NCBI GenBank assembly: GCA_039193195.1
Contig: JBCCWS010000020.1
Span: 1 to 64,000, forward strand
Reading direction: 5' to 3'
Length of the DNA stretch: 64,000 bases
DNA from: Pseudomonadota bacterium
GTDB taxonomy: Bacteria; Pseudomonadota; Gammaproteobacteria; Steroidobacterales; JBCBZW01
Of this stretch, positions 33,696-62,988 are shown piece by piece (the stretch's first letter is position 1; the number at the start of each line of letters is the position of its first letter). A program made the translations under genes and the position numbers. Below the pieces are notes generated by a model. It did not search any database and was not told the origin of the DNA. It saw nothing but the letters and a program-made list of their open reading frames with translations.

Positions 33696-35558
33696 CTAGC
33701 TCGTCAGGTCACTGACGGCTCGGTAGGCCTGCTCGATTGCCGCTTCCGACATCGCGTTGGAGGCCGCGTCGCTAGCCGCGATGGCGATGTTGCCAAAGGC
33801 ATCGCGATTGCGCTCCCAGTAACGCTCCTCCGGCGACCACAGGTCCGGCTCGAAGGCAATGCGATCGGTCTTCGGGTCGTGAGCGTAGGCGTAGCCGTGG
33901 GGCCAGCGGTTCACGGTGATAGCGGCGATGTCACGGTCAGCCTGGAAGCCCCCTGGAGCGAGCATGCGCGTCAGCTGATCGCGCACGTGATCTTCGAAGG
34001 TGCCGAAGGGTGTCGACAGGAGGGAGCGCTGGCCGGCGCGAAACTGCTCCCTTGCGCTGAGCCCAGCCTCCCCGGGCACGTGATTGAGGTGCAATACCAT
34101 GGGCTCTTCGGGGCTGACGGGGTAGTCGTAGCCGCCGATCGAGACGGGCCAGTCCAACATCACATTGTGGAAGAAGCTGCCCGAGCACAGGGCGCGGTGA
34201 AAGCCGAGATTGGCGATGGACTGCCAGTTGCGCACCACCACGTTCGTGTACACCAAGGGCGCTCGGACCGCTTGACCGAGGAGCTCGCGCTGGGGATTGG
34301 GCATCTGCGGGCACAGGCGTGGCACGATGCCGTGATAGCAGGCGAGCACTACTTGGCGCGCCGTTACCGTGCGCGCCTTGCCACCGACCACATAGGTAAC
34401 GCGCACGGCATTGTCGAGATCGTCATCGATGTGTCGGACGCGCACGACCGTGCTGTTCAAGCGAATACGCACCTTGTTGGCGGCCCGATCGAGGGCGCCG
34501 TAGTTAAACTTCGCAAGGACGATGTCATCCATCGTGCGCCCCGGTGCAACCTTAGGAATCATCTCGCGCACGAGCATGCGGGCGATCGTCGCGTTGCCGT
34601 CGGGGAAGTGATAGATGTAGGGATGAGGGTCTTCCTCCGCCTCGGCTGAATCCGAGTAGAGGCCGAGGTCCAGTTCGCCGAATCCTGGGTATCCGCTCAC
34701 CATCGCGGCCCGCGCCGGAAACGCATCGATGCCGATCGCCCACACGCCGCGGCTGATGTCCTTGATCGCGGCGAGGGCCTCAGCACCGATCTGGGCGCGC
34801 TCCCTGAGGTAAGTCTCGTAGCTGACTTCCGTCAGGTAGGCAAGCTGGGCGTCGCGGCCCAACTCCTCGTCGAGGTAGTGACGCTCATTGGCGAACAGGC
34901 GTACAAGCTGCGCCTTGGCTCCGTCGCTCAAAGGCGCCCCTGCCACCACCTTCGCATCCGCGAGCGATCCCACCGCGAGGTGATCACGGCCGAAACGCTC
35001 GCGATTGAAGAACGTGGCGGAGGCCAGGCCGAGGTCATCGAAGAGATCGTGATGATATGCCTGCTTGAAGCGATCCGTGTCGATGCCCAGCTCGCGCAGG
35101 AGGCGCTTAGCAACCGCCGGGTAGCCCCCGGGCGCCTCGATGAGCATGGTGCCACCGTAGCCGATCAGCTGCTTATCACCGACCGTGAATTCGTTGCGCT
35201 TCGCGTGGCCCCCGAAGTCATCGTGATTATCCAGTACCAGGATCTTCGATCCGCTGCCCGCCGCCTGGCGGTAGAAGTAGGCGGCGGATAGGCCACTTAT
35301 CCCACCCCCGACCACGGCCAGATCGTAGAGCTCACCCGTATCCTCTGCCGGCGGTAGGGCTCCGCCATCGCGCAGCGAGTGGGCCACCTCGTAGGAGCCT
35401 TCATGGGAGCCGCGCAGCCCCACCTTCGCAGGCGGGTAGTCTTCTGAAAAGGCAAGGTGCGGGTCCATCGCTCTCGCGAGACCTTCCGGCACCATGGAGG
35501 CGCCGACGCCTACGGCGATCCCGTTCAGAAAATCACGGCGCGTTACCTGACGCTTCAC
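33696..35558 (-). CDS. Spermidine dehydrogenase-like FAD oxidoreductase, Tat-exported
   Basis: Probably oxidises spermidine (or a related polyamine) in the periplasm, giving an aminoaldehyde and an amine. The 620-residue protein is the same length as Pseudomonas SpdH and has a twin-arginine signal TRRDFLNG (Arg7-Arg8), a dinucleotide-binding motif GGGISG (84-89), then LVLDNHDDFGGHAKRNEF and IGYGGTMLIEAPGG, which are typical of this family. The C-terminus has ITVNRWPHGYAYAHDP. The start is GTG after GAGAGGGG. Its stop abuts the stop of the convergent cyclase gene with no gap. A MITE-like element lies just upstream. Confidence 0.84.
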   Translation of the reverse strand: MKRQVTRRDFLNGIAVGVGASMVPEGLARAMDPHLAFSEDYPPAKVGLRGSHEGSYEVAHSLRDGGALPPAEDTGELYDLAVVGGGISGLSAAYFYRQAAGSGSKILVLDNHDDFGGHAKRNEFTVGDKQLIGYGGTMLIEAPGGYPAVAKRLLRELGIDTDRFKQAYHHDLFDDLGLASATFFNRERFGRDHLAVGSLADAKVVAGAPLSDGAKAQLVRLFANERHYLDEELGRDAQLAYLTEVSYETYLRERAQIGAEALAAIKDISRGVWAIGIDAFPARAAMVSGYPGFGELDLGLYSDSAEAEEDPHPYIYHFPDGNATIARMLVREMIPKVAPGRTMDDIVLAKFNYGALDRAANKVRIRLNSTVVRVRHIDDDLDNAVRVTYVVGGKARTVTARQVVLACYHGIVPRLCPQMPNPQRELLGQAVRAPLVYTNVVVRNWQSIANLGFHRALCSGSFFHNVMLDWPVSIGGYDYPVSPEEPMVLHLNHVPGEAGLSAREQFRAGQRSLLSTPFGTFEDHVRDQLTRMLAPGGFQADRDIAAITVNRWPHGYAYAHDPKTDRIAFEPDLWSPEERYWERNRDAFGNIAIAASDAASNAMSEAAIEQAYRAVSDLTS

Positions 35559-35579
35559 GTCCCCTCTCCCTTACCGACT

Positions 35580-35740: not shown

Positions 35741-35741
35741 A

Positions 35742-37235
35742 CTAGTCGTCGAACTCGAACCAGGTCGTCTTCAACTCCGTGTAGTCGTCGAAGGCATGGA
35801 TAGACTTATCGCGTCCGTTGCCACTCTGTTTGAAGCCACCGAAGGGCACCGTGATGTCACCGCCGAAGTAGTTGTTCACGGTCATGGTGCCCACGCGCAG
35901 AGCATTCGCCACTTTGTGTGCGGTGTTGATGTTCTGGGTCCACACCGCACCCGCGAGCCCGTAGATGGAATCGTTAGCCAAGGCGATAGCCTCGTCGGCC
36001 GAGTCAAAGCCGATCACAGACAGGACCGGCCCGAAGATCTCCTCGCGGGCGATACGCATGTCGTTGCGCACCCCGGTGAAGACCGTCGGCTCATGGTAAT
36101 AGCCGCCGGAGTCGAGGTGGGTCTGGTTGCCTCCTGCCACAAGCGACGCGCCCTCTTGCCGGCCGACGGAGACGTAGCTGGATACGGTCTCAAACTGCTT
36201 CTCGCTAATGAGCGGTCCCATCGTTGTATCGGGATCGAGGGGATCTCCCGGATGCCAGTCCTGACAGTGCGCGAGCACCTTCTCGACAAAGGCGTCGTGG
36301 GCGGAGTTCTCTACAAACAGTCGCGTGCCTGCCGTGCAGGTCTGGCCGCCGTTGTAGAACACGGCCAGGGCCGCGCCAGCGGCGGCCTTGTCGAGGTTAG
36401 CGTCGCCAAACACGATGTTCGGACTCTTACCGCCGAGCTCGAGGAACACGCGCTTCAAGTTCGACTGCGCGGCGTCCTGCATGATGCGCTTGCCGACCGC
36501 GGTCGAGCCCGTGAAGGTCACCCCGTCCACATCCGGATGGCGCGCGAGATGGCCGCCGATGGTCGGGCCGTCGCCGGGCAGTACCTGCAACACCCCCGGC
36601 GGCAGCCCCGCTTCGGCCGCGAGACCCGCGATGCGAATGGCCGTGAGCGGCGTATTCTCCGACGGTTTGACGATCACCGAGTTGCCCGTGGCGAGGGCCG
36701 GCCCTAGCTTCCACGCGGTGGTGGAGATGGGGAAGTTGAAGGGCACTACCGCCGCCACCACGCCGAGCGGTAAGCGTTGCACCAGAGCCAGGGTGCTAGC
36801 TGGAGAGGGGGAGATCTCATCGTACAGCTTGTCGATGACTTCGCCGCTCCAGCGAATCGTGCGAATCGCCGAGGGAACATCATCGCCCGTGGTGTCACCG
36901 ATCGGCTTGCCCGCGTCGAGAGTCTCAAGCAACGCGAGTTCGCTAGCATGCGCCTGCATGAGCTCTGACCAGCGCACCATGATGGCCTTGCGATCCCCTG
37001 GCGCTTTGCGCGACCACACGCCGCTTTCGAAGGTCTTGCGCGCGACCTTGACCGCTTGATCGACATCCTGGATCGAGCATTCGGCCACATCCGCCAGCGG
37101 AGTGCCGTCGGCCGGCCGAGTCAGCATGCGGATCTCCCCGGACATCGATGGGCGATAATCGCCGTCGATGAAGGCGCGAGCCTCGATGGAAAGCGCGTCC
37201 GCAGCGGTGCGCCAGTTGTCGTCTGCTATATCCAT
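35742..37235 (-). CDS. Aldehyde dehydrogenase, PuuC-like (gamma-glutamyl-aminobutyraldehyde/aminoaldehyde dehydrogenase)
   Basis: Oxidises an aminoaldehyde to its acid with NAD(P). The 497-residue protein has the usual catalytic residues: Asn167 (PFNFP), Glu266 (LELGGKSPN) and Cys300 (GGQTCTAGTRLF). The segment QDWHPGDPLDPDTTMGPLI is typical of PuuC-type enzymes. Its place between two spermidine-dehydrogenase-like genes suggests it takes their aldehyde product. I chose ATG 37235 (AGGGAAA upstream); a longer frame exists but is unconserved. The stop codon lies at the edge of the MITE-like element, so the last residues could have been altered by the insertion, although the usual C-terminal region is present. 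Confidence 0.88.
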   Translation of the reverse strand: MDIADDNWRTAADALSIEARAFIDGDYRPSMSGEIRMLTRPADGTPLADVAECSIQDVDQAVKVARKTFESGVWSRKAPGDRKAIMVRWSELMQAHASELALLETLDAGKPIGDTTGDDVPSAIRTIRWSGEVIDKLYDEISPSPASTLALVQRLPLGVVAAVVPFNFPISTTAWKLGPALATGNSVIVKPSENTPLTAIRIAGLAAEAGLPPGVLQVLPGDGPTIGGHLARHPDVDGVTFTGSTAVGKRIMQDAAQSNLKRVFLELGGKSPNIVFGDANLDKAAAGAALAVFYNGGQTCTAGTRLFVENSAHDAFVEKVLAHCQDWHPGDPLDPDTTMGPLISEKQFETVSSYVSVGRQEGASLVAGGNQTHLDSGGYYHEPTVFTGVRNDMRIAREEIFGPVLSVIGFDSADEAIALANDSIYGLAGAVWTQNINTAHKVANALRVGTMTVNNYFGGDITVPFGGFKQSGNGRDKSIHAFDDYTELKTTWFEFDD

Positions 37236-37260
37236 GTCTCGTTTCCCTGGTTGGGACAAA

Positions 37261-39222
37261 TCAGGTGAGCTCTTGCACGGCGCGATGGGCCTGCATGGCC
37301 GCTTGCGGGAAGAGCGCGCTCGCCCCCGCATCTGAGTTGGCGATGGCGATCTGGCCGAAGGGTCTGCGACCGGCGACGTGGGGGAATCGTTCGTCGTTCC
37401 AGTCGTCGTAGAACTCATCGTTGCGCCAATCGTAGGAATAGGCGTAGCCGTGGGCCCAGCGATTCACCGTGATGCCTGCGATGTCCTTCGCTGGGTCAAA
37501 GCCACCTGGACCTAGCAATTCCGTCAGCTGCGCGCGAGCATTGCGCTCGATGGTCGAGAATGGCGTCGTCATCAATTCGTGTCGACCGAGACTGTAGAGC
37601 TCAGGCGGCGTGAGGTGTGGGTCCGGGTAAAACAGAAACCGCTCCATATGCACCACCACCGGCGAGTCCGGTGCGGGTGAGAACTTGTAATCGCCGATGC
37701 TCACGGGAAAATCGACCATGGCGTTGACGAAGTAGCCACCTGGCATTGCCACGCAGCCCACGCCGAGCTTCTCGAAGGCGCGCCAGTTGGTCAGCGCTAC
37801 ATTGGTGTAGATGATCGGCGCGCGTATGCGGCTCTGCAGGGCTGCCCGCTGAGGCGCAGGCAGCTGCGGGCATAGGGCGGGGATGATGGCGTTGTTGCAG
37901 GCGAGGATGCAGCGATCGCCGTGGACACGCTGCGCCTGGCCGTTGGCGACGTAGGTGACCGCCACCTCTTTTTGACCGGGCCCATCGCCCGGCGTATGCG
38001 TCACGTTCACCGCGGTGCTGTTCAGGCGCACCCGCACCTGTTGGTCCTCGAGGTCCAACTTGCCGTAATCGAAGGACGCGGTGACGATGTCCTCCATCGT
38101 GTCGCCCGGCGCGACACTGGGGATCAGGCGGCGCACTATCAAGCGGGCAACGCTCGCCAGTCCATCTGGAAAGTGGTGAATGTAGGGGTCGTCTTCGAAG
38201 GCGAAGTCGACGTCGACGCCAGTGACGGCTCCGCCGGGCAGGGTACCGTAGAGAAACACGTCGCCGGCAGCGCATTGGTCGATATCGACGGTGGCGTCCG
38301 TACTCAAGCCCGCCAAGGCGCGAAACACTTCCGGCTCGGTCACGTCCAGGTGACGGCGCAGAAACTCGGCGTAGGTCAGCGTATACAAGTATTCCTCGCG
38401 CTCCTGTCGGGACCAGGACTCGAAGCGATCGGTGCGATCGGTCAACACGCGCAGCATCTGCGCTTTGGCCTTCGGGGACATCGGCATCGCCGCCACGGCC
38501 TCATGCGCTGGGACTCCCGGCGCCAGCGGTAGCCAACTCCAAAACCCGCCTAGGTCGTAGGGGACGAGGCGTCGTTCGCCCCACTGATCCTGGGCGAAAA
38601 GGACCGCGCCCGCCAGCTTGTGGCGGCGATAGAAATCCTGATCGTAGGCCTGCCCGAGCCTCTTAAGATCGACTCCTAAGTCACGCAGTAGGCGCCTTAC
38701 GGCCCGCGGGTAGCCGGCCGGCGCCTCGAAGGTTTGGGTGCCTCCGTAGCCAATCAGGCGCTGCCCCCCCACCTCGAATTCGTTGCGCTTGGCGTGGCCG
38801 CCGAAGTCGTCGTGGTTATCTAGGAGCAGGATGCGCGCGTCCGGTTGCTTCTGATGGAAGAGGTAGGCGGCAGTGAGGCCGCTCAGGCCGGCGCCAACGA
38901 CCACGAGATCATACTTCTCCCCTGAATCGAGCACCGGCCCAAAGTCCGTGCGCCCACCACGGGCCAAGGCGTGGGCCACTTCGAAGGCGCCATCATGGTT
39001 GCCGCGCATGCCCATACGCTCGGGAGGCCGCCCGAGCGCGGGCTGGGCGGCGGCGAACGGGGCTCGGTCCGCCCCGAGGGCTGCCCCGGGCACGATCATG
39101 GCTCCCGCCATCGCGCCGAATCCGTTGATGAAGTCTCGGCGCGTGATGTCCGATCCCATGCCCAACGCCCGATCGGAGCGCTCTTGGGGGCGTAAGTCTG
39201 TGCTGCTTGGTCCCTTGGACAC
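37261..39222 (-). CDS. Second spermidine dehydrogenase-like FAD oxidoreductase, Tat-exported
   Basis: A 653-residue paralogue of the gene at 33696-35558 with the same order of motifs: a twin-arginine signal TRRDFINGF (Arg28-Arg29, after a longer n-region), GAGLSG (110-115), LLLDNHDDFGGHAKRNEF, IGYGGTQTFEAPAGY and ITVNRWAHGYAYSYDW. The two differ widely in the middle, so they may act on different amines. The GTG start is preceded by GAGG. It lies 25 bp upstream of the PuuC-like gene on the same strand and diverges from the FAD-GcvT-PhyH operon across 168 bp. Confidence 0.83.
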   Translation of the reverse strand: MSKGPSSTDLRPQERSDRALGMGSDITRRDFINGFGAMAGAMIVPGAALGADRAPFAAAQPALGRPPERMGMRGNHDGAFEVAHALARGGRTDFGPVLDSGEKYDLVVVGAGLSGLTAAYLFHQKQPDARILLLDNHDDFGGHAKRNEFEVGGQRLIGYGGTQTFEAPAGYPRAVRRLLRDLGVDLKRLGQAYDQDFYRRHKLAGAVLFAQDQWGERRLVPYDLGGFWSWLPLAPGVPAHEAVAAMPMSPKAKAQMLRVLTDRTDRFESWSRQEREEYLYTLTYAEFLRRHLDVTEPEVFRALAGLSTDATVDIDQCAAGDVFLYGTLPGGAVTGVDVDFAFEDDPYIHHFPDGLASVARLIVRRLIPSVAPGDTMEDIVTASFDYGKLDLEDQQVRVRLNSTAVNVTHTPGDGPGQKEVAVTYVANGQAQRVHGDRCILACNNAIIPALCPQLPAPQRAALQSRIRAPIIYTNVALTNWRAFEKLGVGCVAMPGGYFVNAMVDFPVSIGDYKFSPAPDSPVVVHMERFLFYPDPHLTPPELYSLGRHELMTTPFSTIERNARAQLTELLGPGGFDPAKDIAGITVNRWAHGYAYSYDWRNDEFYDDWNDERFPHVAGRRPFGQIAIANSDAGASALFPQAAMQAHRAVQELT

Positions 39223-39390: not shown

Positions 39391-41004
39391 GTGCCACGAT
39401 TTGACGCTATCGTGATCGGCGCCGGGCACAACGGCCTGACGACCGCGGCATTTCTCGCGAAAAGCGGCCTGGACGTACTGGTGTTGGAACGCAACCCATA
39501 CTCTGGCGGCGCCACCGTGAGTCGCGAGCTCCATGAGGGGTGGACGTACTCGAACTGCTCCTACGTCTGCAGCCTGTTCCGCCCGGAGATATACGCTGCC
39601 CTCGATCTCGGCCGCCACGGCCTGAAGGTCATCCCGCTGGTGAGCAGCATGACCTTCAAGCGAGACGGTGACTACTTCGGCAGCTACCAACACCCGGCGA
39701 TTCGCCGCCGAGAGCTGCGCCGACACAGCCCGCGCGATGCGGACGCGGCCGTGCGCTTCGATGCGGACGTCCTGCGCTGGTGCCGCCTGATCCGCGGCAT
39801 GCTCCTGCGCACGCCCCCCGACCCCACATCCCTAGCGCCCCGCGACGCCTTCGAATTCGCCTACCTATTGAAGAAGTTCTGGGCCCTGAGCGAGGCCCAG
39901 CTGTATGAATTCATTCGCTTCTTCACGATGTCGATCGCGGAATATCTCGAAAACTACTTCGAGAACGAGACCATCCTCGCCCACTATTCAGGCGGCAGCA
40001 TCATCGGCACCGGGCTCGGCGTCTACTCGCCCGGCACCGCCTACGTGCTGCTCCACCACGCCATGGGGGATGTGGACGGCAACGTCGGCGCCTGGGGCTT
40101 CGCGCGCGGCGGCATGGGCGCCGTGGCCAAGGCCCTCGCGAGCGCCTTCGAGGGCTACGGCGGCAAGCTGCGCTGTGATGCGGCGGTGGAGAAGATCAAG
40201 TCGCGCGGCGGGCGCACGACCGGCGTAGTGCTCGGCTCAGGCGAGGAAATCGACGCACCCGTGGTGGTTTCCAGCCTCAACGCCAAGACGACGTTCACGC
40301 GATTGCTCGAAGCGGACGACGTACCGCCCACCCTGCTGTCCCGCGCTGAGCGCTTCAAGACCCGCGGCTCGTCAGGAAAGCTGAACATTGCCTTAGAGGG
40401 CCTTCCCACCTTCCGCGCCCTGCCCGAAGGGTCACCGCTAACGCTCGGCCACATGCACTTCACGGACACCTTGGAGCGCCTGGAACTGGCCTACGATGAT
40501 TGGAAGGAGAAGCGCTGGTCCGCCGACCCCTACACGGACACGCTGATCCCCTCCCAGTACGACCCCACGATCGCGCCGCCGGGCAAGCACATGATGAGCG
40601 TGTTCGTGCAGTACTGCCCCGCCGACGTAGAGGGCGGCTGGACCGACGAGAAACGCACCGCCTTCGGCAACACGGTAATCGACCAGATCGCCGACTACAG
40701 TCCCGACTTCAAGTCCCTCATCGCCCACGCAGAGGTGCGCACGCCGCGCGAACTAGAAGCGGAGGTGGGCCTGCTCGAGGGCAACATCTTCCACGGCGAA
40801 CTCACCTTCGACCAGCTGCTGTTCAACCGGCCCTTCCCGGGTGCCGCCCAATACCGAGGTCCGCTGAAGGGCATGTACCTCGCCGGCTCGTCCTCGCACC
40901 CGGGCGGTGGCGTGATGGGCGCACCGGGCTGCAACGCAGCGCGCGAGATTCTCGCCGACCTGCGTCGCACTGATATCACGCCTAGCGAGTTTCCGGATGA
41001 CTGA
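39391..41004 (+). CDS. Phytoene dehydrogenase-like FAD oxidoreductase (COG1233/PYROXD2 type), first of a pair
   Basis: A cytoplasmic FAD amine-oxidase-fold protein of 537 residues; substrate unknown. FDAIVIGAGHNGL (Gly10, Gly12, Gly15) binds FAD, followed by VLERNPYSGGATVSRE. The C-terminal FAD signature is GMYLAGSSSHPGGGVMGAPGCNAAREI, typical of COG1233. There is no carotenoid cluster nearby, so a carotenoid role is unlikely. I chose GTG 39391, which has GAGGAT six bases upstream and places the FAD motif at the normal distance; the frame is open 15 codons further. It is the first gene of a tightly packed operon, overlapping the next gene by 8 bp. Confidence 0.85.
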   Translation: MPRFDAIVIGAGHNGLTTAAFLAKSGLDVLVLERNPYSGGATVSRELHEGWTYSNCSYVCSLFRPEIYAALDLGRHGLKVIPLVSSMTFKRDGDYFGSYQHPAIRRRELRRHSPRDADAAVRFDADVLRWCRLIRGMLLRTPPDPTSLAPRDAFEFAYLLKKFWALSEAQLYEFIRFFTMSIAEYLENYFENETILAHYSGGSIIGTGLGVYSPGTAYVLLHHAMGDVDGNVGAWGFARGGMGAVAKALASAFEGYGGKLRCDAAVEKIKSRGGRTTGVVLGSGEEIDAPVVVSSLNAKTTFTRLLEADDVPPTLLSRAERFKTRGSSGKLNIALEGLPTFRALPEGSPLTLGHMHFTDTLERLELAYDDWKEKRWSADPYTDTLIPSQYDPTIAPPGKHMMSVFVQYCPADVEGGWTDEKRTAFGNTVIDQIADYSPDFKSLIAHAEVRTPRELEAEVGLLEGNIFHGELTFDQLLFNRPFPGAAQYRGPLKGMYLAGSSSHPGGGVMGAPGCNAAREILADLRRTDITPSEFPDD

Positions 41005-42553
41005 GCCCTCGACCACCGTAGTGATCGGCGCCGGTCACAACGCGCTTGTCTGTGCCACCTACCTGGCGCGCGCCGGCCGACGGGTTACCTGCCTGGAGGC
41101 CGCAGCGATGCCGGGCGGCATGGCGTCGTACCGCGCCTTCGGCGAAGGCTATAGCGCGCCCATCGCCCACGCGCAGTATCCCCTCGATGACCGGTTGGTG
41201 AAGGACCTCGATCTCGAACAGCACGGCTACAGGGCTGGCGCGCCCGCCCCGACGACGGTGCTCGACCCCGAGGGTCAAACGCTTAGTGCCCTCGGCACCG
41301 ATCTATCGGGTGCTGGCGCAACGCGGGGCGACCAAGCTGCCTACCGGGCCCTGCGCGCGGGGTTTGCAGAGTTCGCCGATTGCTTGGCACCCCTATTCGA
41401 TAGCGCGCCGCCACGACTCAAGCACCTCGGCATGGGTGAGCTTCGTGGCCTCTCCTCACTTGCCCTGAGGCTTCGCTTCGGGCTTGGGCGGGAGAAGCTG
41501 CAGGAATTGCTGCGCGTGGCAGGCATGAACATCTACGACCTGCTCGATGAGCACTTTGCTGATGAGCGGATTAAGGGATTGATGGCGCTGGAGGCACTGC
41601 AGGGGTCAGCGATGGGTCCGCGCACACCTGGCACCGTGCTCACCTGGCTTCATCGCCTAGCGAATGCACACGATCGCTTCCCGGCGATCGCCGCCGATGC
41701 CGACCGTAGCATCGGCACCGCCTTGGCAAACGCGCTACGGGCGGCGGGCGGTGAGCTGCGCTACGACACCAAGGTGCGTGCGATCTCCATCGAGGATTCG
41801 CGGGCCACGGGCGTCATCTTGAGCGATGGTGAGCGCATCCGCGCCAGCACGGTAATTTCGGGCGTGGACCCGCGCGCGACCTTCGAAGAGTTGCTCGGGC
41901 TGCCCTCCCTCGACGCCGCATTCGCCCGCCGCATCACGCAGATCCGCGGCAGGGGGGTGGTCGCGAAGCTGCATCTCGGCCTGAACTCGCTTCCCGCCTT
42001 TCCAGGGCTCACCCCGGAGACCCTCGGCGGGCGCATGCTGGTTGCCCCCTCGGCAGACTACGTGGAGAAGGCCTTCAATCCGAGCAAGTACGGACGACAC
42101 AGTCCCGCGCCCGTGCTCGAGATCACGATGCCCTCCCTCGCCAACGCGAGCCTCGCCCCCGAGGGCAAGCACGTGATGTCCATGAACATCTCTTTTGTGC
42201 CCTACCAAACGCAGGGTGACACCGATGCATTTCGTCAAAGCGTACTCGACAGCGCACTGGACACGCTCGGTGAGTACGATCGCGCGCTGCGCAGCCGGGT
42301 CGTGTGCAGCGATCTCATGACACCGACAGACCTGGAAGCTCAGTTCGGTGCCGTCCAAGGCCACTGGCACCACGGTGAACTATCGATGCACCAGTCGCTG
42401 ATGCTGCGCCCACTCTACGGCGCTGCGCGGTACGCCGCTCCGGTGCGCGGCGTGTACTTGTGTAGCGCCGGTTGCCACCCAGGCGGTGATGTGAGCGGCA
42501 GACCCGGTCGCAACGCAGCCGCGGCGATCCTCGCCGCGAAGGACGCCCCATGA
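40997..42553 (+). CDS. Phytoene dehydrogenase-like FAD oxidoreductase, second of the pair
   Basis: A 518-residue protein of the same family as its neighbour but clearly divergent from it. TTVVIGAGHNALVCATYLA (GxGxxA form) binds FAD, LEAAAMPGGMASYRAF follows, and the C-terminal signature is GVYLCSAGCHPGGDVSGRPGRNAAAAIL. Its ATG overlaps the stop of the preceding gene (ATGACTGA), and its TGA overlaps the next start (ATGA), so the three are translationally coupled. Paired flavoproteins could act in sequence or as a heteromer; nothing here decides. Confidence 0.85.
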   Translation: MTEPSTTVVIGAGHNALVCATYLARAGRRVTCLEAAAMPGGMASYRAFGEGYSAPIAHAQYPLDDRLVKDLDLEQHGYRAGAPAPTTVLDPEGQTLSALGTDLSGAGATRGDQAAYRALRAGFAEFADCLAPLFDSAPPRLKHLGMGELRGLSSLALRLRFGLGREKLQELLRVAGMNIYDLLDEHFADERIKGLMALEALQGSAMGPRTPGTVLTWLHRLANAHDRFPAIAADADRSIGTALANALRAAGGELRYDTKVRAISIEDSRATGVILSDGERIRASTVISGVDPRATFEELLGLPSLDAAFARRITQIRGRGVVAKLHLGLNSLPAFPGLTPETLGGRMLVAPSADYVEKAFNPSKYGRHSPAPVLEITMPSLANASLAPEGKHVMSMNISFVPYQTQGDTDAFRQSVLDSALDTLGEYDRALRSRVVCSDLMTPTDLEAQFGAVQGHWHHGELSMHQSLMLRPLYGAARYAAPVRGVYLCSAGCHPGGDVSGRPGRNAAAAILAAKDAP

Positions 42554-43752
42554 GCACCACCCTCGATCATACGCACTTCCGCCGAGCCCTTGACGCCACG
42601 CCATTCCTACACTTCTACGAGGCGCTATCCACGCGAGAGCACTGGACCGCTTGGAACGGCTACAAGGTAGCCAAGGTGATCGACAACCTCGCGCGCGAGT
42701 ACTACGCCATTCGCAGCGGCTGCTCCGTGATGGATCTCACCCCGATGGAGAAGTACCGCATCGCGGGGCAGGACGCGTTGCGATTCCTCAATCGCCTGGT
42801 GACGCGAGACGTGAGCCAGCTTCAGATCGGTCGCGTCACCTACGCGCTCTGGTGCGACGACGAAGGAAAGGTGATCGATGACGGCACGATCTTCCGCCTG
42901 AGCGAACACGAGTTCCGTCTCTGCGCGCAGCATCACCAGCTCGACTGGTTGCTAACGAGTGCGCTCGGCTTCGATGTCGACATCGCGTGCGAGACGCACG
43001 AGATCGCAGCGCTGGCGGTGCAAGGGCCCACCTCGCACACGGTGCTCGCGGCAGCTGGTTTTGGCGAACTGGAGCAGCTCAAGCCCTTCCGCAGCGTTCA
43101 GACATCCTTCGCAGGGACTCCCGCGCTGGTGTCACGAACGGGATTTACGGGCGACCTCGGCTACGAGGTCTGGGTGCATCCCGCGCACGGCGACGCCTTG
43201 TGGCATTCCCTGATGGCACAACGCGCTTGCCTAGATGTTGTGCCCATCGGCCTGGATGCGATGGAGATGGCGCGCATCGAGGCAGGATTCATCATGCCAG
43301 GCTTCGACTTCATCACGGCCGAGACAGCCCTGATGCCAGAGCACCAACGCTCGCCTGAGGAGCTCGGGCTCGGGTGGGCCGTGGATCTCAGCAAAGGGCC
43401 TTTTACGGGCCGCGCCGCCCTCGCCGAGGAACGCGCTCAGCCCGCACGGCGCCGCCTGTGCAAGCTGATCGTGGGGGGCAACAAAGCGGTGGGCGATGCC
43501 TTTCTGTACAAACGCCGGAAGGGCCGTGAGATAGGGGTGGTTCGCTGTAGCACTTGGTCACCGGTACTGAAGGCAAACTTGGCATTGGCGGAGCTCGCGC
43601 TCTCCGACGGCGCCCTCCCCAGCGACGTATGGGCAAAGATCGACTATCAGCGAGAGCTGGCCTGGCGCGTGGCGTGGGAGCCCTGCACGATAACAAGCAA
43701 ACCCTTCTACTCTCCCGTTCATCGCAGCGCGACGCCGCCCGCCGCGTACTGA
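42550..43752 (+). CDS. GcvT-family aminomethyltransferase/demethylase-like protein
   Basis: A 400-residue folate-binding protein of the GcvT/DmdA/LigM superfamily, which moves one-carbon units from methylated or aminomethyl substrates to tetrahydrofolate. The N-terminal part reads IRSGCSVMDLTPMEKYRIAG; the conserved acidic motif is EGKVIDDGTIFRL (Asp110-Asp111), matching IDD in GcvT. SRTGFTGDLGYEVWV and PIGLDAMEMARIEAGF are family hallmarks. No GcvP or GcvH is present, so it is not the glycine cleavage T protein. Coupling to two flavoproteins and a transporter suggests demethylation of an imported substrate. A true O- or S-demethylase, as in LigM or DmdA, is possible. Confidence 0.85.
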   Translation: MSTTLDHTHFRRALDATPFLHFYEALSTREHWTAWNGYKVAKVIDNLAREYYAIRSGCSVMDLTPMEKYRIAGQDALRFLNRLVTRDVSQLQIGRVTYALWCDDEGKVIDDGTIFRLSEHEFRLCAQHHQLDWLLTSALGFDVDIACETHEIAALAVQGPTSHTVLAAAGFGELEQLKPFRSVQTSFAGTPALVSRTGFTGDLGYEVWVHPAHGDALWHSLMAQRACLDVVPIGLDAMEMARIEAGFIMPGFDFITAETALMPEHQRSPEELGLGWAVDLSKGPFTGRAALAEERAQPARRRLCKLIVGGNKAVGDAFLYKRRKGREIGVVRCSTWSPVLKANLALAELALSDGALPSDVWAKIDYQRELAWRVAWEPCTITSKPFYSPVHRSATPPAAY

Positions 43753-43780
43753 ACGTACTCCAAGCAAGGCCAAGGACCGC

Positions 43781-44956
43781 ATGAGCAACGCGTCGCAAAA
43801 TCCCTTCGATAGCTGGCGCGCCATGGCTGTCTCGCTCTACATGGTGCTGGTTGGCTACGGCGTGCTGGTGGGCATTCCGGTCATCAGCTCAGCTTGGGTA
43901 AACCAGCTTGGATTCAGCGAAGTGCAGGTTGGCCGCGTCGCCGGGGCCGATCTCGGCGGTCTGTCCGTGGGCGCAGTGCTCACCTCCATGCTAATCGCAC
44001 GCTGCTCTCGCCGCGGCCTCACTCTGCTCGGCATTGCCCTGTCCGTAGCGGCGAACGGCCTATGCATCACCATCACGGCGTACGAGCAGGTGCTGTGGCT
44101 TCGCTTCCTGTCGGGCATCGGCAGCGGCATCTACACGGCCGTTGCTGTCGCCAACCTGGGGGCGACCTCACGACCAGCCCGAGCCTTCAACTTCGCCCTA
44201 TTCGCCTTCGCCTTTTCTCAGGCGCTCGAACTCGCCGTGCTGCCAATGCTCTCGATGACGGGCATCTACCTTGTGTTCATCGTGACTTACCTGCTCACGC
44301 TGCCGTTCCTCGGCTGGTTTCCCGCGGGACGACAGGCCCCAGCGGTGGACACCGCGCGCGAAGCCACCGTGGCGCCAACCGTCCCACGCTACCTGCCGTG
44401 GATGGTGCTGGCAGCCATCGGTGTCACCTACGTGAACATCGGCGCTTACTGGACCTACATCGAACTGGCGAGCGCAGACTCTGCCGCCGACCCAGATTGG
44501 GTGGCGCGGGCGCTCGTCATCACCTCCTTCTTTTCTATCCTCGGATGCCTCTTCGCCACCCTGATTAGTAATCGCTTCGGCCTGGCGCGCCCGCTGATGG
44601 TGACCCTAGTGCTGCAAGCGGTCATCGTGGCGATGCTCGCCAACGGCATTGATAACGTGAACATCGTGATCAGCTTGTTTAGCTTCAACTTTCTCTGGGT
44701 GTTCATCGACGTCTATCAAATGGCGACGGTCGCCAACGTTGACCCGGATGGTCGCTACTCCGCCCTGATGCCCGGCGCTCAGGGCCTCGGTCAAATCATT
44801 GGGCCGAACATCGCGGCATCCGTGCTCGCGGGCGGATACGGCTACCACGGAGTGTTTATCTTCTGTGCCGCGGCGTCGATCTTAGCGCTGCTGATCTACG
44901 CCACGATGTACGCTCAGCTGCGCACCTCGTGCCCAGCGCTAGCTGACGCATCGTAG
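43781..44956 (+). CDS. MFS transporter
   Basis: An inner-membrane permease of 391 residues with about 12 hydrophobic helices (for example AVSLYMVLVGYGVLVGIPV and VLAAIGVTYVNIGAYWTYI). Short N- and C-termini and the arrangement of two six-helix halves fit the major facilitator superfamily; the subfamily is not clear. It lies 28 bp after the GcvT-like gene and 27 bp before the PhyH-type gene, so it is in the same operon and probably imports the pathway substrate. Confidence 0.82.
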   Translation: MSNASQNPFDSWRAMAVSLYMVLVGYGVLVGIPVISSAWVNQLGFSEVQVGRVAGADLGGLSVGAVLTSMLIARCSRRGLTLLGIALSVAANGLCITITAYEQVLWLRFLSGIGSGIYTAVAVANLGATSRPARAFNFALFAFAFSQALELAVLPMLSMTGIYLVFIVTYLLTLPFLGWFPAGRQAPAVDTAREATVAPTVPRYLPWMVLAAIGVTYVNIGAYWTYIELASADSAADPDWVARALVITSFFSILGCLFATLISNRFGLARPLMVTLVLQAVIVAMLANGIDNVNIVISLFSFNFLWVFIDVYQMATVANVDPDGRYSALMPGAQGLGQIIGPNIAASVLAGGYGYHGVFIFCAAASILALLIYATMYAQLRTSCPALADAS

Positions 44957-44983
44957 GTCGACCGGTGATTTCGGGAGCCGCTG

Positions 44984-45799
44984 ATGCCCGACCATGACCG
45001 CGCGCGAATTCCCAGCCTCGCATCAACTTCCCCTACGGACTCGATCATCAGCTCGCTGCGCACGCAAGGCGGGGTGATCGTTCGCGACGTGGTGCCGGCG
45101 AGCGTGCCCAAGGCCGTGCTCGCCGAGCTAGAGCCACCCTTGGCCGACTTCGGTGCGAGATTCGCCAACGACTTCAACGGCTACCGCACGCTGCGGGCAG
45201 GTGCCATCTTGAAGGTGTCGCCCTCATCGCCAACCCTGATAGCCCACCCCTTGGTGCTCGAGGTGGCCGACGCGATCCTGCTGCCCCATGCCAATAGCTA
45301 CCGGATCGGTAGCACCACTGCGATCAAGGTGCTGCCGGGCGAACGGCATCAGCAGCTGCATCGCGATGTAGACGATCTCTACCCCATCGCATTGCCTGGC
45401 GTCGAGTTGCAGCTTTCGGTGATGTGGGCCCTCGGCGACTTCACGCGGGAGAACGGCGCGACGCGCATGGTGCTCGCTGAGCACGCGCCGAACCAGCGGA
45501 GTGATATCAGGGAAGAGCATATTGCCCAGGCGGAGATGCCGCGCGGCTCGGCGTTGTTCTACCTCGGCACGACCTGGCACGGCGGCGGCGCCAACACCAC
45601 CTCATCTGCGCGCACCGGCCTGGTCAATACCTACAGCCTGGGGTGGCTACGGCAAGAGGAAAACCAGTACCTGAGCGTGCCTCGCGAAATTGCAGACGCC
45701 CTACCAGAGCGAGTTCGTCGCTTGATGGGCTATCAAAGCGACGGGCCCTACCTCGGCGTCTACCCCGGTGATCCCGACAACAACTGGTACGAGTCCTGA
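44984..45799 (+). CDS. Phytanoyl-CoA dioxygenase (PhyH) family Fe(II)/2-oxoglutarate oxygenase
   Basis: Probably hydroxylates a small substrate using Fe(II), 2-oxoglutarate and oxygen. The 271-residue protein keeps the facial triad His126 and Asp128 (LHRDVDD) and His199 (TTWHGGGAN), and the 2-oxoglutarate Arg at about 210 (ARTGLV), followed by [16 protein letters not shown], typical of PhyH-like enzymes. It is the last gene of the FAD-FAD-GcvT-MFS run, 27 bp after the transporter. Hydroxylation of an N- or O-methyl group would give a formaldehyde-yielding demethylation, which would suit a folate-linked pathway, but this is inference. Confidence 0.85.
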
Positions 45800-51487: not shown

Positions 51488-51500
51488 GAGGAGAACAGCC

Positions 51501-58541: not shown

Positions 58542-59912
58542 TCAGAACACCGCCGCCATGGTGGCATCGAGCGCTGTGGCGGCGCGGTTGACCAACTCAT
58601 CTGCCTGCCCATGGGTGAGGGGGAAGGGTGGCGCCACGACCATCGTATCGCCCACGGCGCGCATGACGATGCCTGCCTCAATCGCATTGTCGCGGCAGAT
58701 CGTGCCCACTCCCACATCCTTGGGAAAGCGTTCGAGCGTATCCCGAGACTGCACCAGCTCGAGCGCCCCCATCAGTCCGACCATCCGCATCTCGCCCACG
58801 AGCGGGTGCTGACCGAGCTGCGCCCAACGCTCCTGCAGGTAGGGCCCAATATCATCGCGAATGCGCTCTACTAGACCCTCCCGACGGATGATGTCGAGGT
58901 TGGCGATGGCCACGGCACAGGACGCGGGATGGCCGGAGTAGGTGTAGCCGTGAGCGAACTCGCCAGCCCTCTCGGTGAGCACTTGCGCCACACGCTTGCT
59001 CACGAGCACTCCGCCTAGGGGCAGATAGCCGGAGGTCACTCCCTTGGCGAAGGAGATGAGGTCTGGCTCTACGCCGTAATAGGTGGCACCAAACCACTCG
59101 CCCAAACGTCCGAAGCCGGTAATCACCTCATCGCACACCATCAGAACGTTGTGCTTGCGACAGATACGCTGGATCTCAGGCCAGTAGGTGGACGGTGGGA
59201 TGATCACCCCTCCAGCGCCCTGAACCGGCTCGCCAATGAACGCGGCTACCTGATCAGCGCCGATGCGCTCGATGGCGCGCTCGAGCTCGCGCGCCATGGC
59301 CAGCCCGAAGTCCGCTGGCGACTGCTGGCGATCGCTGTCGAACCAATAGGGCTGCTCGATGTGCTCGACGCCCGGAATCGGCAGGCCACCCTGCTTGTGC
59401 ATGGCGGCCATGCCCCCGAGGCTCGCCGCGCCCACCGTGGAGCCGTGATAGGCATTCTTGCGCGCGATGAAGGTGTGCTTGCCTTCGTAACCCATAAGAT
59501 CCCAGTAGGTGCGGACCATGCGCATGACCGTGTCATTCGCCTCCGAGCCGGAGCCGGCGAAGAACACGTGCTCGAACTGGGGCGGGCTGATCTCGTTGAG
59601 CAGCGCCGAAAGATCCACCGCGGGCACATTGGTGCACTGAAAGAAGCTGTTGTAGTATGGCAGCTTCGCCAGCTGTCGCGTCGCCGCGTCCACGATCTCC
59701 TGACGCCCGTAGCCCACGTTCACGTTCCACAGGCCCGACATGGCATCGAGGATCTGTCGGCCGTCGGCGTCGTATATGTAGACGCCGTCGGCCCGCGTGA
59801 TCAGACGCGTGCGCCGCTCACCGAGCTCACGATGGTCGGTGAAGGGGTGCATGTGGTGGTGGTGATCCAGGTCCTGCCACTCGTCGACAGAACGTTCGGG
59901 CGTAGCGTCCAT
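58542..59912 (-). CDS. spuC: Polyamine:pyruvate aminotransferase, SpuC-like (class III PLP)
   Basis: Transfers an amino group from putrescine or a related diamine to pyruvate. The 456-residue protein has the same length as Pseudomonas SpuC and the class III motifs: NSFFQCTNVPAVDLSALL, AGSGSEANDTVMRM, FIGEPVQGAGGVI, CDEVITGFGRLG, and the PLP lysine in DLISFAKGVTSGYLPLGG. The substrate is inferred from sequence type and neighbours. Its product would be an aminoaldehyde suited to the PuuC-like dehydrogenase. It lies 30 bp downstream of the MmsA-like gene. Confidence 0.82.
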   Translation of the reverse strand: MDATPERSVDEWQDLDHHHHMHPFTDHRELGERRTRLITRADGVYIYDADGRQILDAMSGLWNVNVGYGRQEIVDAATRQLAKLPYYNSFFQCTNVPAVDLSALLNEISPPQFEHVFFAGSGSEANDTVMRMVRTYWDLMGYEGKHTFIARKNAYHGSTVGAASLGGMAAMHKQGGLPIPGVEHIEQPYWFDSDRQQSPADFGLAMARELERAIERIGADQVAAFIGEPVQGAGGVIIPPSTYWPEIQRICRKHNVLMVCDEVITGFGRLGEWFGATYYGVEPDLISFAKGVTSGYLPLGGVLVSKRVAQVLTERAGEFAHGYTYSGHPASCAVAIANLDIIRREGLVERIRDDIGPYLQERWAQLGQHPLVGEMRMVGLMGALELVQSRDTLERFPKDVGVGTICRDNAIEAGIVMRAVGDTMVVAPPFPLTHGQADELVNRAATALDATMAAVF

Positions 59913-59942: not shown

Positions 59943-61469
59943 CTAGTTGCTCGGGAACGTGAAGCGCGCGGTCTCGCGCACACCGCCGGACGGCCAGCGC
60001 TGGGTGATGGTCTTACGCCGCGTGTAGAAGCGAATGCTATCGGGACCGTAGGCGTATAGGTCACCGAACAGGGAGCGCTTCCAGCCGCCGAAGCTGTGGC
60101 AGGCCACGGGCACGGGCAGGGGCACGTTGATGCCCACCATGCCCACCTGGATGCGATCGGCGAAGTAGCGCGCCGCCTCGCCGTCGCGGGTAAAGATGCA
60201 GGTGCCGTTGCCGAATTCGTGATCGTCGATGAGCTGCATGGCCTGCTCTTCGGACTCCACGCGCACCACGCACAGAACCGGGCCGAAAATCTCCTCCCGG
60301 TAGATGCGCATGTCCGCGTTCACATGGTCGAACAGGCAGGGCCCTAGGAAGTACCCCTCCTCGTGGCCCTCGACCACCAAGGTGCGACCGTCGCACACGA
60401 GGGTCGCGCCCTCGTCCACGCCCGTGTCTACGTAGCCGCGCACCTTCTCGAAGTGCTCCTTAGTGACCAGCGGGCCCATGTCGTTGGAGGCATCGGCACC
60501 GTTGCCCACGCGCATCTCACCGATGCGCTCGGCAAGCTTGGTGACCACCGCATCGGCCGTCTCGTTACCCACACACACGGCCACGGAGATCGCCATGCAG
60601 CGCTCGCCGCAGGAGCCGAAGGCGGCGCCTATGAGCGCGCTGACGGCGTTGTCGATGTCCGCGTCGGGCATGAGGATGGCGTGGTTCTTAGCCCCGCCGA
60701 GGGCTTGCACGCGCTTGCCGTTGGCGGTGGCCTGGGTGTAGATGTACTCGGCGATCGGCGTCGAGCCGACGAAGCTCACGGCTTGGACGCGCGGGTCGTT
60801 CAACAGCGTATCGACCGCTTCCTTATCGCCGTTCACCACGTTGAAGACGCCATCGGGCAGGCCGGCTTCCTTGAGCAGGCGCGCACAGATGATCGAGGCT
60901 GTCGGATCCTTCTCCGAGGGTTTCAGCACGAAGCAGTTACCGGCGGTGATCGCCATGGGGTACATCCACATGGGCACCATGGCGGGAAAATTGAAGGGGG
61001 TAATGCCTGCCACAACACCGAGCGGCTGATGCTCGGACCAGCTGTCGATCGCAGGACCCACGTTCTTGGTGAACTCGCCCTTCAGCAGCTCGGGCATGGC
61101 GCAGGCGTACTCGACTACCTCGACGCCGCGCTGAAATTCGCCGAGCGCATCGTCGATTACCTTACCGTGCTCTTCGGTAATCGCAGCTGCGATCTCCTGC
61201 GCGTTGGCTTCGAGAAGTTCCTTGAAGCGGAACATGACGCGGGCGCGCTTGAGCGGCGGCGTGTTTCGCCAGCCTTCGAAGGCCGCCTCGGCGGCGGCGA
61301 TCGCCTGCTCCACGGTGCTGGCCGGCGCGAGTGGGACCTCGCGTACCACCTGACCCGTGGCTGGGTTAGTGACGGGCGCCGTACGCCCAGACTCAGCGGT
61401 GTACTCGCCGTTTATGAAGTGGCCTAGCGCCTCTGCCCCGTCGAGGGGAACTGCAGGGTTAGTGCTCAT
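59943..61469 (-). CDS. CoA-acylating (methyl)malonate-semialdehyde dehydrogenase, MmsA/BauC type
   Basis: Converts malonate semialdehyde (or methylmalonate semialdehyde) to acetyl-CoA (or propionyl-CoA) with NAD, CoA and decarboxylation. The 508-residue protein has the MMSDH-type catalytic Cys291 (CGERCMAIS). Where most aldehyde dehydrogenases have the Glu of ELGGK, it shows ALGGAKNH, the hallmark of CoA-acylating MMSDH. As it follows a BauA-like aminotransferase, the beta-alanine route (malonate semialdehyde) is the likely job; valine or inositol breakdown genes are absent. Confidence 0.9.
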
Positions 61470-61493: not shown

Positions 61494-62834
61494 TTAAGCG
61501 ATGGTGGTGATGACGTGGTGGATGCGCTCGAAGGCGCGCTCCCAGTCATCCACCTTGGAGTTTAGGAAGGGCGAGAACTGAATGACGTCGAGGCCGTTGC
61601 GCACGGCGATCCGCTCCTCGACGAAGCAGCGTTTATGCACTTCCAGGCCGCGCGCGCCCGGCGCGCCAGGGCGCGGCGCCAGCTCGATGGCGCCCATCAG
61701 TCCGATGTTGCGCACATCGATGACGTTGTCGAGGTCGGCGAAAGAATGGAGCATCTGTTCAAAGGGCTGAGATAGTGCGGCGGCTTGATCGAAGATCGCC
61801 TCCTCCTCCAGCACCTCGAGGGTGGCGAGGCCGGCGGCGGCGGCCACAGGGTGGCCCGAGTAAGTGTAGCCGTGGAACAGCTCCACCGCGGCGTCCGGCC
61901 CGCGCATGAAGGCGTCGTAGATCTCCTCGCGTACGAGCACTGCGCCCATCGGGATTACGCCGTTGGTAAGGCCCTTGGCGGTAGTGATGATGTCGGGCAT
62001 GACCCCGAAGCGCTCCGCGCCGAAGGACGCGCCCGTGCGACCAAAGCCCGTGATCACCTCGTCGAAGATCAGCAGGATGCCGTGCGCCGTGCAGATCTCG
62101 CGAAGGCGCTCCAGGTAACCCACGGGAGGCGGCAAGATGCCGGTTGAGCCGCCGGCTGGCTCGACGATCACGGCGGCGATTGTGTCCGGCCCGTGCAGCG
62201 TCGCGATGCGCAGCAAATCATCGGCGAGGTGCGCGCCCCACTCGGGCTGACCGCGGGAGAAGGCGGTGTGCGCCAGATCGCAGGTGGTACGCATGTGGTC
62301 CACGCCGGGAATCAGGTTGGCGCTGAACATCTGGCGGTTGGCGACGATACCGCCCACAGACATACCGCCGAAGTTGACCCCGTGGTAGCCACGCTCACGA
62401 CCGATTAAACGCGTTCGCTGGCCGTTGCCCTGCACCCGGTGGTAGCCGAGCGCGATCTTGAGCGCTGTGTCGACAGACTCGGAGCCCGAATTGGTAAAGA
62501 AGGCCCGCGTGAACCCCTCCGGCGCCACGTCGGTGAGCTTCTTGGCGAGCTGGAAGGAGCGATCACTTCCCACCTGGAAGCTCATGCCGTGGTCGAGGTG
62601 CGCCACCTGGTGCTGCACGGCCTCGACAATCTTCGGGTGGCAGTGGCCGACGCCAACGGTCCACAGGCCCGAGAAGAAGTCGTAGATCTGCTCGCCGTCG
62701 GCGCCCGTGTAGTGGTGGCCCTTGGCCCCGGTGATGATCCTCGGCTTGCGCTTGAAATCACGATTGGCCGTGAAGGGCATCCAGAAGGGATCGACGTCGA
62801 TCTTGTCGGTCAGCTCGATGATCTCAGCGCTCAT
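61494..62834 (-). CDS. bauA: Omega-amino acid:pyruvate aminotransferase, BauA-like (beta-alanine)
   Basis: Transfers the amino group of beta-alanine to pyruvate, giving malonate semialdehyde. The 446-residue protein is the length of Pseudomonas BauA and begins with the family's IDVDPFWMPFTANRDFK. It has FSGLWTVGVGHCHPKI, FTNSGSESVDTALKIAL, IFDEVITGFGRTGASFG and the PLP lysine in DIITTAKGLTNGVIPMG. Its product is the substrate of the next gene (25 bp away). The promoter lies in the divergent gap with the PuuR-like regulator. Confidence 0.88.
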   Translation of the reverse strand: MSAEIIELTDKIDVDPFWMPFTANRDFKRKPRIITGAKGHHYTGADGEQIYDFFSGLWTVGVGHCHPKIVEAVQHQVAHLDHGMSFQVGSDRSFQLAKKLTDVAPEGFTRAFFTNSGSESVDTALKIALGYHRVQGNGQRTRLIGRERGYHGVNFGGMSVGGIVANRQMFSANLIPGVDHMRTTCDLAHTAFSRGQPEWGAHLADDLLRIATLHGPDTIAAVIVEPAGGSTGILPPPVGYLERLREICTAHGILLIFDEVITGFGRTGASFGAERFGVMPDIITTAKGLTNGVIPMGAVLVREEIYDAFMRGPDAAVELFHGYTYSGHPVAAAAGLATLEVLEEEAIFDQAAALSQPFEQMLHSFADLDNVIDVRNIGLMGAIELAPRPGAPGARGLEVHKRCFVEERIAVRNGLDVIQFSPFLNSKVDDWERAFERIHHVITTIA

Positions 62835-62923: not shown

Positions 62924-62988
62924 CCGTTGATTCAAAGGCAATGATCTCCCAAAATGTTCACTATCCTAAACACCTGCAGAGATGCCCC

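Follow-up and report, generated by a model that had tools for sequence, protein, structure and literature searches.

The FAD1-FAD2-GcvT gene trio as a candidate N-demethylation module for methylated polyamines in Pseudomonadota

In dimethylglycine oxidase and dehydrogenase and in sarcosine oxidase, a flavin oxidises an N-methyl group and folate captures the methylene, the flavin and GcvT parts being fused or held in one complex and the flavoprotein being of another type than those discussed here. In this article, we describe a locus at positions 39391 to 45799 of a 64,000-nucleotide stretch (hereafter the window) of contig JBCCWS010000020.1 from a gammaproteobacterium of the Steroidobacterales (GenBank assembly GCA_039193195.1), in which two CrtI-like flavoproteins, FAD1 and FAD2, and a GcvT-like folate protein are instead encoded by separate genes with polyamine-type neighbours. 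On balance we think it probable that this trio is an N-demethylating module that would act on methylated polyamines or diamines and deliver the carbon to tetrahydrofolate. The GcvT-like protein is similar to its counterparts in the oxidases named above (1.8e-23 for 1pj5 and 1.8e-28 for 2gag), and the locus nevertheless falls outside that family, given that flavoprotein and GcvT are separate genes and that the FAD models are those of CrtO and CrtI.

Several other described systems share one part or another with this arrangement. Among tested systems, the closest precedent for a GcvT-type partner encoded on its own is DmmD, a stand-alone GcvT-type protein in the N-demethylation operon DmmDABC that, according to the available text of PMC5520151, is co-operonic with a dimethylamine monooxygenase and thought to conjugate formaldehyde to tetrahydrofolate; the window protein, however, lies in a separate clade and is 28% identical to the dmmD-position gene of P. 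aminophilus pAMI6, the single DmmD-position reference used. None of four annotated plasmid loci of the trio carries an annotated DmmA, DmmB or DmmC gene, although dmmABC itself was not searched for. The closest GcvT domain by both NCBIfam and PDB comparison is that of Tdm, with 35% identity to the Tdm-like fusion of pAMI6, but Tdm, a fusion protein, is about 790 aa long, and the window protein matches its GcvT part only. Loci of the trio that contain a Rieske oxygenase gene also recall the glycine betaine pathway, where a Rieske enzyme takes the quaternary to the tertiary amine before folate-linked steps follow; they differ in that the GbcA-like neighbour stays below the GbcA cut-off of 670 (284.6 bits for the representative, with none of 147 related genomes above it) and in that importer and downstream genes are of polyamine type. 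Finally, the window resembles SpdH and Puu/SpuC polyamine catabolism in its SpdH homologue and its PuuR-, SpuC- and PuuC-like genes, and to our knowledge no known route of that kind includes the trio.

The locus and its core proteins

The original prediction described five plus-strand open reading frames in a fixed order with two overlaps, and both the reading-frame list and the sequence agree with it. FAD1, a flavoprotein of CrtI/CrtO/amine-oxidase fold (39391..41004, 537 aa, starting with GTG rather than ATG), overlaps its paralogue FAD2 (40997..42553) by ATGACTGA at 40997-41004; FAD2 overlaps the GcvT-like folate protein (42550..43752) by ATGA at 42550-42553; and a transporter of the major facilitator superfamily (MFS; 43781..44956, MFS_1 1.5e-15) and a PhyH-family Fe(II)/2-oxoglutarate oxygenase (44984..45799, PhyH 1.2e-18) follow after gaps of 28 and 27 bp. 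Pfam and NCBIfam also bear out the families then named (amine-oxidase/DAO-type flavoproteins, GCV_T, MFS_1 and PhyH), and neither GcvP nor GcvH adjoins the GcvT-like gene, as had been noted. A scan of the locus for promoters and terminators found no sigma-70-like promoter, so that the case for a single transcript of five genes rests on their spacing, and it was uninformative on terminators, since terminator-like sites are no commoner there than in shuffled sequence.

FAD1 and FAD2 share 30% identity, and the best NCBIfam models of both, CrtO and CrtI, are matched far below their cut-offs (for FAD1, 249.6 bits against 1000 for CrtO and 115.5 bits against 238 for crtI_fam), which places the pair outside the carotenoid desaturases and ketolases as NCBIfam defines them; the likeness to these carotenoid oxidoreductases is thus one of fold and family. 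A Foldseek search with the predicted FAD1 fold (pLDDT 83) returned 4rep as the nearest structure, followed by 3ka7, NicA2 and CrtI and, further down, MAO and putrescine oxidase. The fold fits carotenoid and amine enzymes equally and the search is not decisive; that it is common to amine oxidases, NicA2 and putrescine oxidase included, counts for an amine substrate, and no carotenoid gene was found among the scanned representatives of neighbour clusters. FAD1 is probably the first enzyme, or one subunit, of an N-methyl amine oxidase.

The GcvT-like protein, identified by Pfam, NCBIfam and PDB comparison, is a member of the GCV_T superfamily (PF01571, 196.8 bits against a cut-off of 25.6, E 4.8e-58) that falls short of the GcvT equivalog (159.6 bits against 235.85, no gcvH adjoining). 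It scores 247.4 bits with the trimethylamine N-oxide (TMAO) demethylase model, below the cut-off of 1100 and over profile positions 400-732 of 763 only, and among solved structures the GcvT domain of that enzyme is the nearest (PDB 9q5a, E 8.4e-43); with the DmdA and LigM models it reaches 125.2 bits against 410 and 54.3 against 580, outside both families. Asp110-Asp111 aligns with the Asp pair of the 1woo T-protein, and across 92 complete modules Tyr98, Glu206 and Arg242 are kept in all and Asp110 and Asp111 in 91; in GcvT-type proteins this Asp is the catalytic residue and the others belong to the folate site. The genome has three GCV_T genes, namely the one at the locus, one in a second module and one on contig C7, the last directly followed by an open reading frame that we take, by eye, to be GcvH. 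In a tree, the GcvT proteins of the modules group together (support 0.946) to the exclusion of the four references used, which are the DmmD-position gene, a relative from S. meliloti, the C7 GcvT and a Tdm-like gene.

These scores bear on the idea, raised in the original prediction, that the substrate is dimethylsulfoniopropionate (DMSP) or a methoxy-aromatic compound. The GcvT-fold relatives DmdA and LigM do exist and a DMSP-lyase-family gene does lie downstream of the trio at one plasmid locus, but the DmdA and LigM matches (125 and 54 bits) are weaker than that to TMAO demethylase (247 bits), polyamine-type neighbours recur, and genes for aromatic-ring degradation are absent from the 20 scanned neighbour-cluster representatives, the GbcA-like Rieske oxygenase excepted. 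We therefore discard a DMSP/LigM-type demethylation on model scores and neighbours, and regard an operon for demethylation of DMSP, O-methyl or methoxy-aromatic compounds as highly improbable. A homarine-type pathway was also considered, and a search of open-licence PMC papers showed, among the entries listed, nothing with the families of the trio.

Conservation of the trio and its neighbours

We searched 147 related genomes and a sample of 398 Pseudomonadota genomes drawn evenly over the phylum, the genome of the window included. Among the relatives, GcvT was found (E<=1e-40) in 45 genomes at 56 places, and 19 of 20 stretches fetched around it hold FAD1, FAD2 and GcvT together, the remaining one starting inside FAD2 at a contig end. 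A scan of named genomes with an alignment of FAD1 gave 78 loci, the best kept from at least 583 confirmed FAD1 relatives, of which 71 have the contiguous trio with GcvT last; six of the seven incomplete trios stop at or near a contig end. In the phylum sample, GcvT at E<=1e-90 occurs in 11 genomes and FAD1 above 780 bits in exactly the same 11, while 43 other genomes have FAD1-like matches of at most 524 bits; since only the best three or four first-look candidates per genome were scored, some copies may have been missed. All ten of these genomes besides the window's own have the trio contiguous with GcvT last, and so do all five plasmid loci examined (of 41 plasmid records, seven are at 44-46% identity, from which these five come, and the remaining 34 are at 32-36% or unlisted). 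Its hosts include many marine and soil bacteria among the Gamma- and Alphaproteobacteria, with many Gammaproteobacteria (incomplete genomes of about 1.4 Mb among them), rhizobia and isolates of Paracoccaceae. The original prediction would have had to be given up had its genes been confined to the lineage of the window; for FAD1, FAD2 and GcvT the opposite is found. Its ordered set of five families did not hold as a unit, because PhyH (E<=1e-25) occurs in only 9 of the 147 relatives and MFS adjoins the trio in only 1 of the 78 named loci; the unit is the trio, to which MFS and PhyH are a local addition.

On four annotated plasmids (of Fuscovulum, Shinella, Rhizobium and Parasedimentitalea), the trio is accompanied by TetR, ABC importer, Rieske-type and aminotransferase genes and is annotated only as 'NAD(P)/FAD-dependent oxidoreductase' and 'aminomethyltransferase family protein'. 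In the Fuscovulum ytuae plasmid, the trio operon extends to genes for a DMSP-lyase-family protein, an amidohydrolase and a methyltransferase (L150:19542-22794).

The exact co-occurrence of FAD1 and GcvT in the phylum sample speaks to a different division of labour, in which the flavoproteins would oxidise or desaturate a polyamine chain and GcvT would only trap formaldehyde released by an oxygenase (the Rieske enzyme, or PhyH here), as proposed for DmmD beside its monooxygenase (PMC5520151, as far as its available text goes). The resemblance of FAD1 and FAD2 to desaturases would suit such a scheme, yet from the co-occurrence GcvT appears to follow the flavoproteins and not an oxygenase, and 27 of the 66 main-lineage modules and all 26 others show no Rieske gene of at least 150 bits, with the caveat that the stretches seen are of limited length and that the search did not extend to other oxygenases. 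We consider this formaldehyde-trapping role quite unlikely.

In a tree of the 92 complete modules, the patristic distances of FAD1, FAD2 and GcvT correlate at 0.76-0.84 and three lineages can be told apart: a main set of 66 modules with the order FAD1-FAD2-GcvT, the clade of the window with 13 modules (support 1.0), and a second type of 13 modules with the order FAD2-FAD1-GcvT (support 1.0), these counts overstating independence because some loci come from one genome or from very closely related ones (L069/L070, L078/L079). A BetI, Rieske or PotF gene lies near 60 of the 66 main modules (BetI 54, Rieske 39, PotF 36), and SpuC, PuuA, PuuB or SpdH near 33 of the 66 main, 8 of the 13 window-clade and 8 of the 13 second-type modules.

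Neighbour clusters were named by NCBIfam and Pfam on one representative each, and the names denote families rather than equivalogs because most score below curated equivalog cut-offs. The recurrent ones are a BetI-like TetR regulator, a GbcA-like Rieske oxygenase, PotF, PotG, PotH and PotI, a PuuA-like ligase, a PuuB/AmaA-like oxidase, aminotransferases of GSA and SpuC type, an acyl-CoA synthetase of ADP-forming type and an acyl-CoA dehydrogenase. The 78 named loci hold BetI in 41, Rieske in 37 (36 at >=150 bits), at least three of PotFGHI in 24, PuuA in 22, SpuC in 22 and PuuB in 18, a census that is partly circular because the neighbour models were built from the same loci. With public models in the relatives, PotF-like genes lie within 20 kb of 17 of the 56 GcvT loci against about 0.8 expected, and GbcA-like Rieske genes of 19 against about 0.6, the expectation being a rough one (copies per genome x 40 kb / 3.5 Mb); the nearer distances to GcvT cluster at 7.5-7.8 kb for PotF and 4.36-4.40 kb for Rieske, which marks the linkage as fixed synteny. 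By genome, GbcA-like and GcvT genes are both present in 32, GcvT alone in 13, GbcA-like alone in 4 and neither in 98 (Fisher 1.2e-17), and the corresponding figures for PotF are 27, 18, 27 and 75 (Fisher 1.7e-4), statistics in which related genomes are not independent. The ten phylum-sample loci have BetI in all ten and PotF-like genes in eight, seven of the eight at 69-80 bits only.

As a control we used 20 loci at which a FAD1-like gene occurs but the GcvT family is absent, taken mostly by score and not at random, from 18 of the 43 non-trio genomes plus two extra copies in trio genomes. Any polyamine or Rieske marker is present at 60 of 78 trio loci against 5 of 20 control loci (Fisher 2.8e-5), BetI at 41 against 3 (0.003), Rieske at 36 against 4 (0.04) and three Pot genes at 24 against 1 (0.02). 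PuuA was used as a linked gene only, because its model matches 136 of the 147 relatives and 13 of 14 control genomes at the threshold used and is useless as a genome-wide marker. One locus without GcvT (L163, G237:C4:13001-33000) has a FAD1-like gene of another subfamily (522 bits) near PotG, PotH, PotI and Rieske genes; the type of substrate may be common to the wider flavoprotein family. Other recurrent neighbour clusters comprise a 190-aa Asp/Arg-hydroxylase-like protein (k18, 16 loci), TPR-sulfotransferases (k20, 14) and TonB receptors (k27, 8).

Proposed chemistry, substrate and objections

From this gene content we infer the substrate class, the chemistry and the respective roles of FAD1, FAD2, MFS and PhyH; the co-occurrence, linkage, homology and conserved folate-site residues themselves are direct observations. 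The substrate should be methylated because of the GcvT partner, the Rieske neighbour and the BetI-like regulator, and a polyamine because of PotFGHI, SpdH, SpuC, PuuA and PuuB, so that the N-methylated amine suggested in the original prediction is both supported and sharpened by the neighbours. In a scheme like that of dimethylglycine oxidase with its parts on separate proteins, the flavoproteins would oxidise the N-CH3 group of a tertiary or secondary amine end to an iminium, and the GcvT-like protein would capture the carbon on tetrahydrofolate as 5,10-methylene-tetrahydrofolate; FAD1 and FAD2 might form one heteromer, or each might take successive methyl groups. In the main lineage PotFGHI would import the substrate and the GbcA-like Rieske oxygenase would first remove a methyl group from a quaternary nitrogen, places that MFS and PhyH may take in the genus of the window. 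The demethylated backbone would then enter ordinary polyamine catabolism, its C3 part via SpdH, an aldehyde dehydrogenase and AptA/malonate-semialdehyde dehydrogenase and its C4 part via PuuA/PuuB/succinate-semialdehyde dehydrogenase (SSADH).

The same neighbours could also fit a substrate other than a polyamine, namely a quaternary or methylated ammonium compound such as a choline or carnitine derivative, gamma-butyrobetaine, N6-trimethyllysine or decarboxylated N6-trimethyllysine, which the trio would demethylate while the neighbouring aminotransferase, acyl-CoA synthetase and acyl-CoA dehydrogenase would degrade the chain. The last two genes, the GbcA-like Rieske oxygenase and the BetI-like regulator (108 bits for the representative, cut-off 201) are indeed found near many modules. 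A further pointer comes from human PYROXD2, a putative member of the flavoprotein family of FAD1. The available text of PMC8109053 ties N6-methyllysines to PYROXD2 as a human metabolite quantitative trait locus, with one missense variant accounting for ~50% of the variance in blood N6-methyllysine; in that of a paper on a PYROXD2 disorder (PMC8777681), trimethylamine occurs and bacteria, homolog and methyllysine do not. However, PotFGHI, SpuC, PuuA, PuuB and SpdH are families of free di- and polyamines, and the island of the window contains two SpdH-like genes, its genome having no GbcA-like match. A non-polyamine ammonium substrate is therefore unlikely in our view.

Several observations count against a methylated polyamine as the substrate of the trio. 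The case is built on gene content and sequence. The named flavoproteins nearest to FAD1 and FAD2 are carotenoid enzymes, a carotenoid desaturase leads the fold matches, and at one locus (L074) FAD1 stands beside MFS and an aminotransferase-like match (158 bits) without FAD2 or GcvT and with no contig end to explain it. BetI, Rieske or PotF lie near none of the 13 window-clade modules and 2 of the 13 of the second type, and the Rieske gene, the strongest methyl-specific neighbour, is missing here, the genome of the window having no PotF- or GbcA-like match at E<=1e-60. PotF has no specific tie to the trio (of 86 PotF-like copies 69 are found elsewhere, and 27 genomes carry PotF but lack GcvT), Rieske is found in only 1 of 10 phylum-sample loci, and 18 of the 78 named loci, 9 of them longer than 13 kb, have no marker at all. 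The PuuA-type relatives are far below the NCBIfam cut-off and may act on other glutamyl acceptors. Lastly, the C3 branch (AptA/malonate-semialdehyde) recurs in only 5 of 78 other loci and was dropped as a general neighbour of the trio.

Natural candidates for the methylated polyamine or amine are silica-associated polyamines, silaffin-type lysines, N-methylputrescines and methyl-lysines, none of them preferred by the present data. As far as the available texts of these papers go, the polyamines associated with silica differ among themselves in N-methylation and in quaternary ammonium groups (PMC2763108), and the lysines of silaffins carry two or three methyl groups or N-methylated oligo-propyleneimine chains (PMC4557024). 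One could go further and see in the trio the key step of a widespread and so far undescribed bacterial pathway for N-methylated polyamines, including two components of diatom biosilica, its methylated oligo-propylamine chains and its quaternary ammonium polyamines, where the Rieske oxygenase (or PhyH) would take the quaternary methyl group, the trio the next two, and SpdH with AptA/malonate-semialdehyde dehydrogenase would consume the propylamine units; we offer this only tentatively, as doubtful at present.

The polyamine island, the accessory genes and their meaning

The trio diverges from polyamine oxidase genes, as the original prediction had it: 33696-39222 on the minus strand holds SpdA (33696..35558), a homologue of the spermidine dehydrogenase SpdH (PDB 7d9i etc., E 4.7e-138; structures from Pseudomonas aeruginosa), a PuuC/betaine-aldehyde-dehydrogenase-like aldehyde dehydrogenase (35742..37418, 610.7 bits against the PuuC cut-off of 850) whose true start is probably near 37238, and SpdB (37261..39222), spermidine-dehydrogenase-like and 42% identical to SpdA. 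Towards the window's end, the minus strand carries a class III aminotransferase of SpuC type (58542..59912, PRK07480, 737 bits, cut-off 510), a (methyl)malonate-semialdehyde dehydrogenase (59943..61469, TIGR01722, 676 bits, cut-off 448.5), the omega-aminotransferase AptA (61494..62834, 650 bits, cut-off 500) and part of a class I amidotransferase (63574..64000, PRK05665-like, 246.7 bits, cut-off 309), and the plus strand a PuuR-like regulator (62941..63540, 162.5 bits, cut-off 211). Beyond the window the island continues with a PuuA-like ligase (matched at 157 bits by the gamma-glutamylputrescine synthetase model and better by GlnA), a second module in the order FAD2-FAD1-GcvT (G000:C20:66456-70802, L034:6456-10802), two PuuB/AmaA-like oxidases and SSADH; paired modules occur in 5 of the 78 named loci. 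With the SpdH homologue and with the SpuC-type, AptA, malonate-semialdehyde dehydrogenase and SSADH genes above their cut-offs, and PuuR below, this is a polyamine catabolic island. The halves of a spermidine-type polyamine are degraded via beta-alanine and malonate semialdehyde (C3) and via gamma-aminobutyrate and succinate semialdehyde (C4), and the island would, from its gene families, serve both. The names Puu, SpuC, SpdH and MmsA appear in the available text of PMC8437039. Elsewhere in the window, at 50960-51986, lie two adjacent paralogous open reading frames of 175 and 161 aa, putative BLUF blue-light sensors.

Seven PhyH loci outside the window were inspected (in six further genomes and the sister species), and this MFS adjoins PhyH in the sister species only; MFS adjoins FAD1 alone in one more of the 78 named loci. 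In the sister species the trio reaches a contig edge (L035) and MFS-PhyH starts at the edge of another contig (L158), followed after about 4 kb by the SpuC-MmsA-AptA block, which in the window is found at a distance of 12.7 kb. MFS is probably the route of substrate uptake in a genome without a PotF-like match, and PhyH, an accessory at the level of the genus, possibly a stand-in for the Rieske oxygenase. A PhyH homologue in another genome (L156, G109:C11:686715-688795; 53% identical) lies about 0.3 kb from PotF in a stretch with an aldehyde-dehydrogenase-type match, a neighbourhood that hints at PhyH acting on polyamines.

Among the entries listed in searches of open-licence PMC papers, none describes an operon with the families of the trio or a bacterial route for N-methylated polyamines, and the pathway appears undescribed so far. 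Polyamines and methylated amines are both held important in marine dissolved organic matter, as far as the available source texts go. If our reading is right, methylated polyamines would serve as a food source whose methyl carbon flows into folate, an unnamed branch of CrtI-like flavoproteins would gain a function, and the trio would provide a marker gene for a flux of nitrogen that may be connected with algal silica, as well as a testable lead for human PYROXD2 and its N6-methyllysine variant (available text of PMC8109053). Should the biosilica extension also be true, PYROXD2, as a putative member of the same flavoprotein family, would become a candidate N-methyl-amine oxidase.

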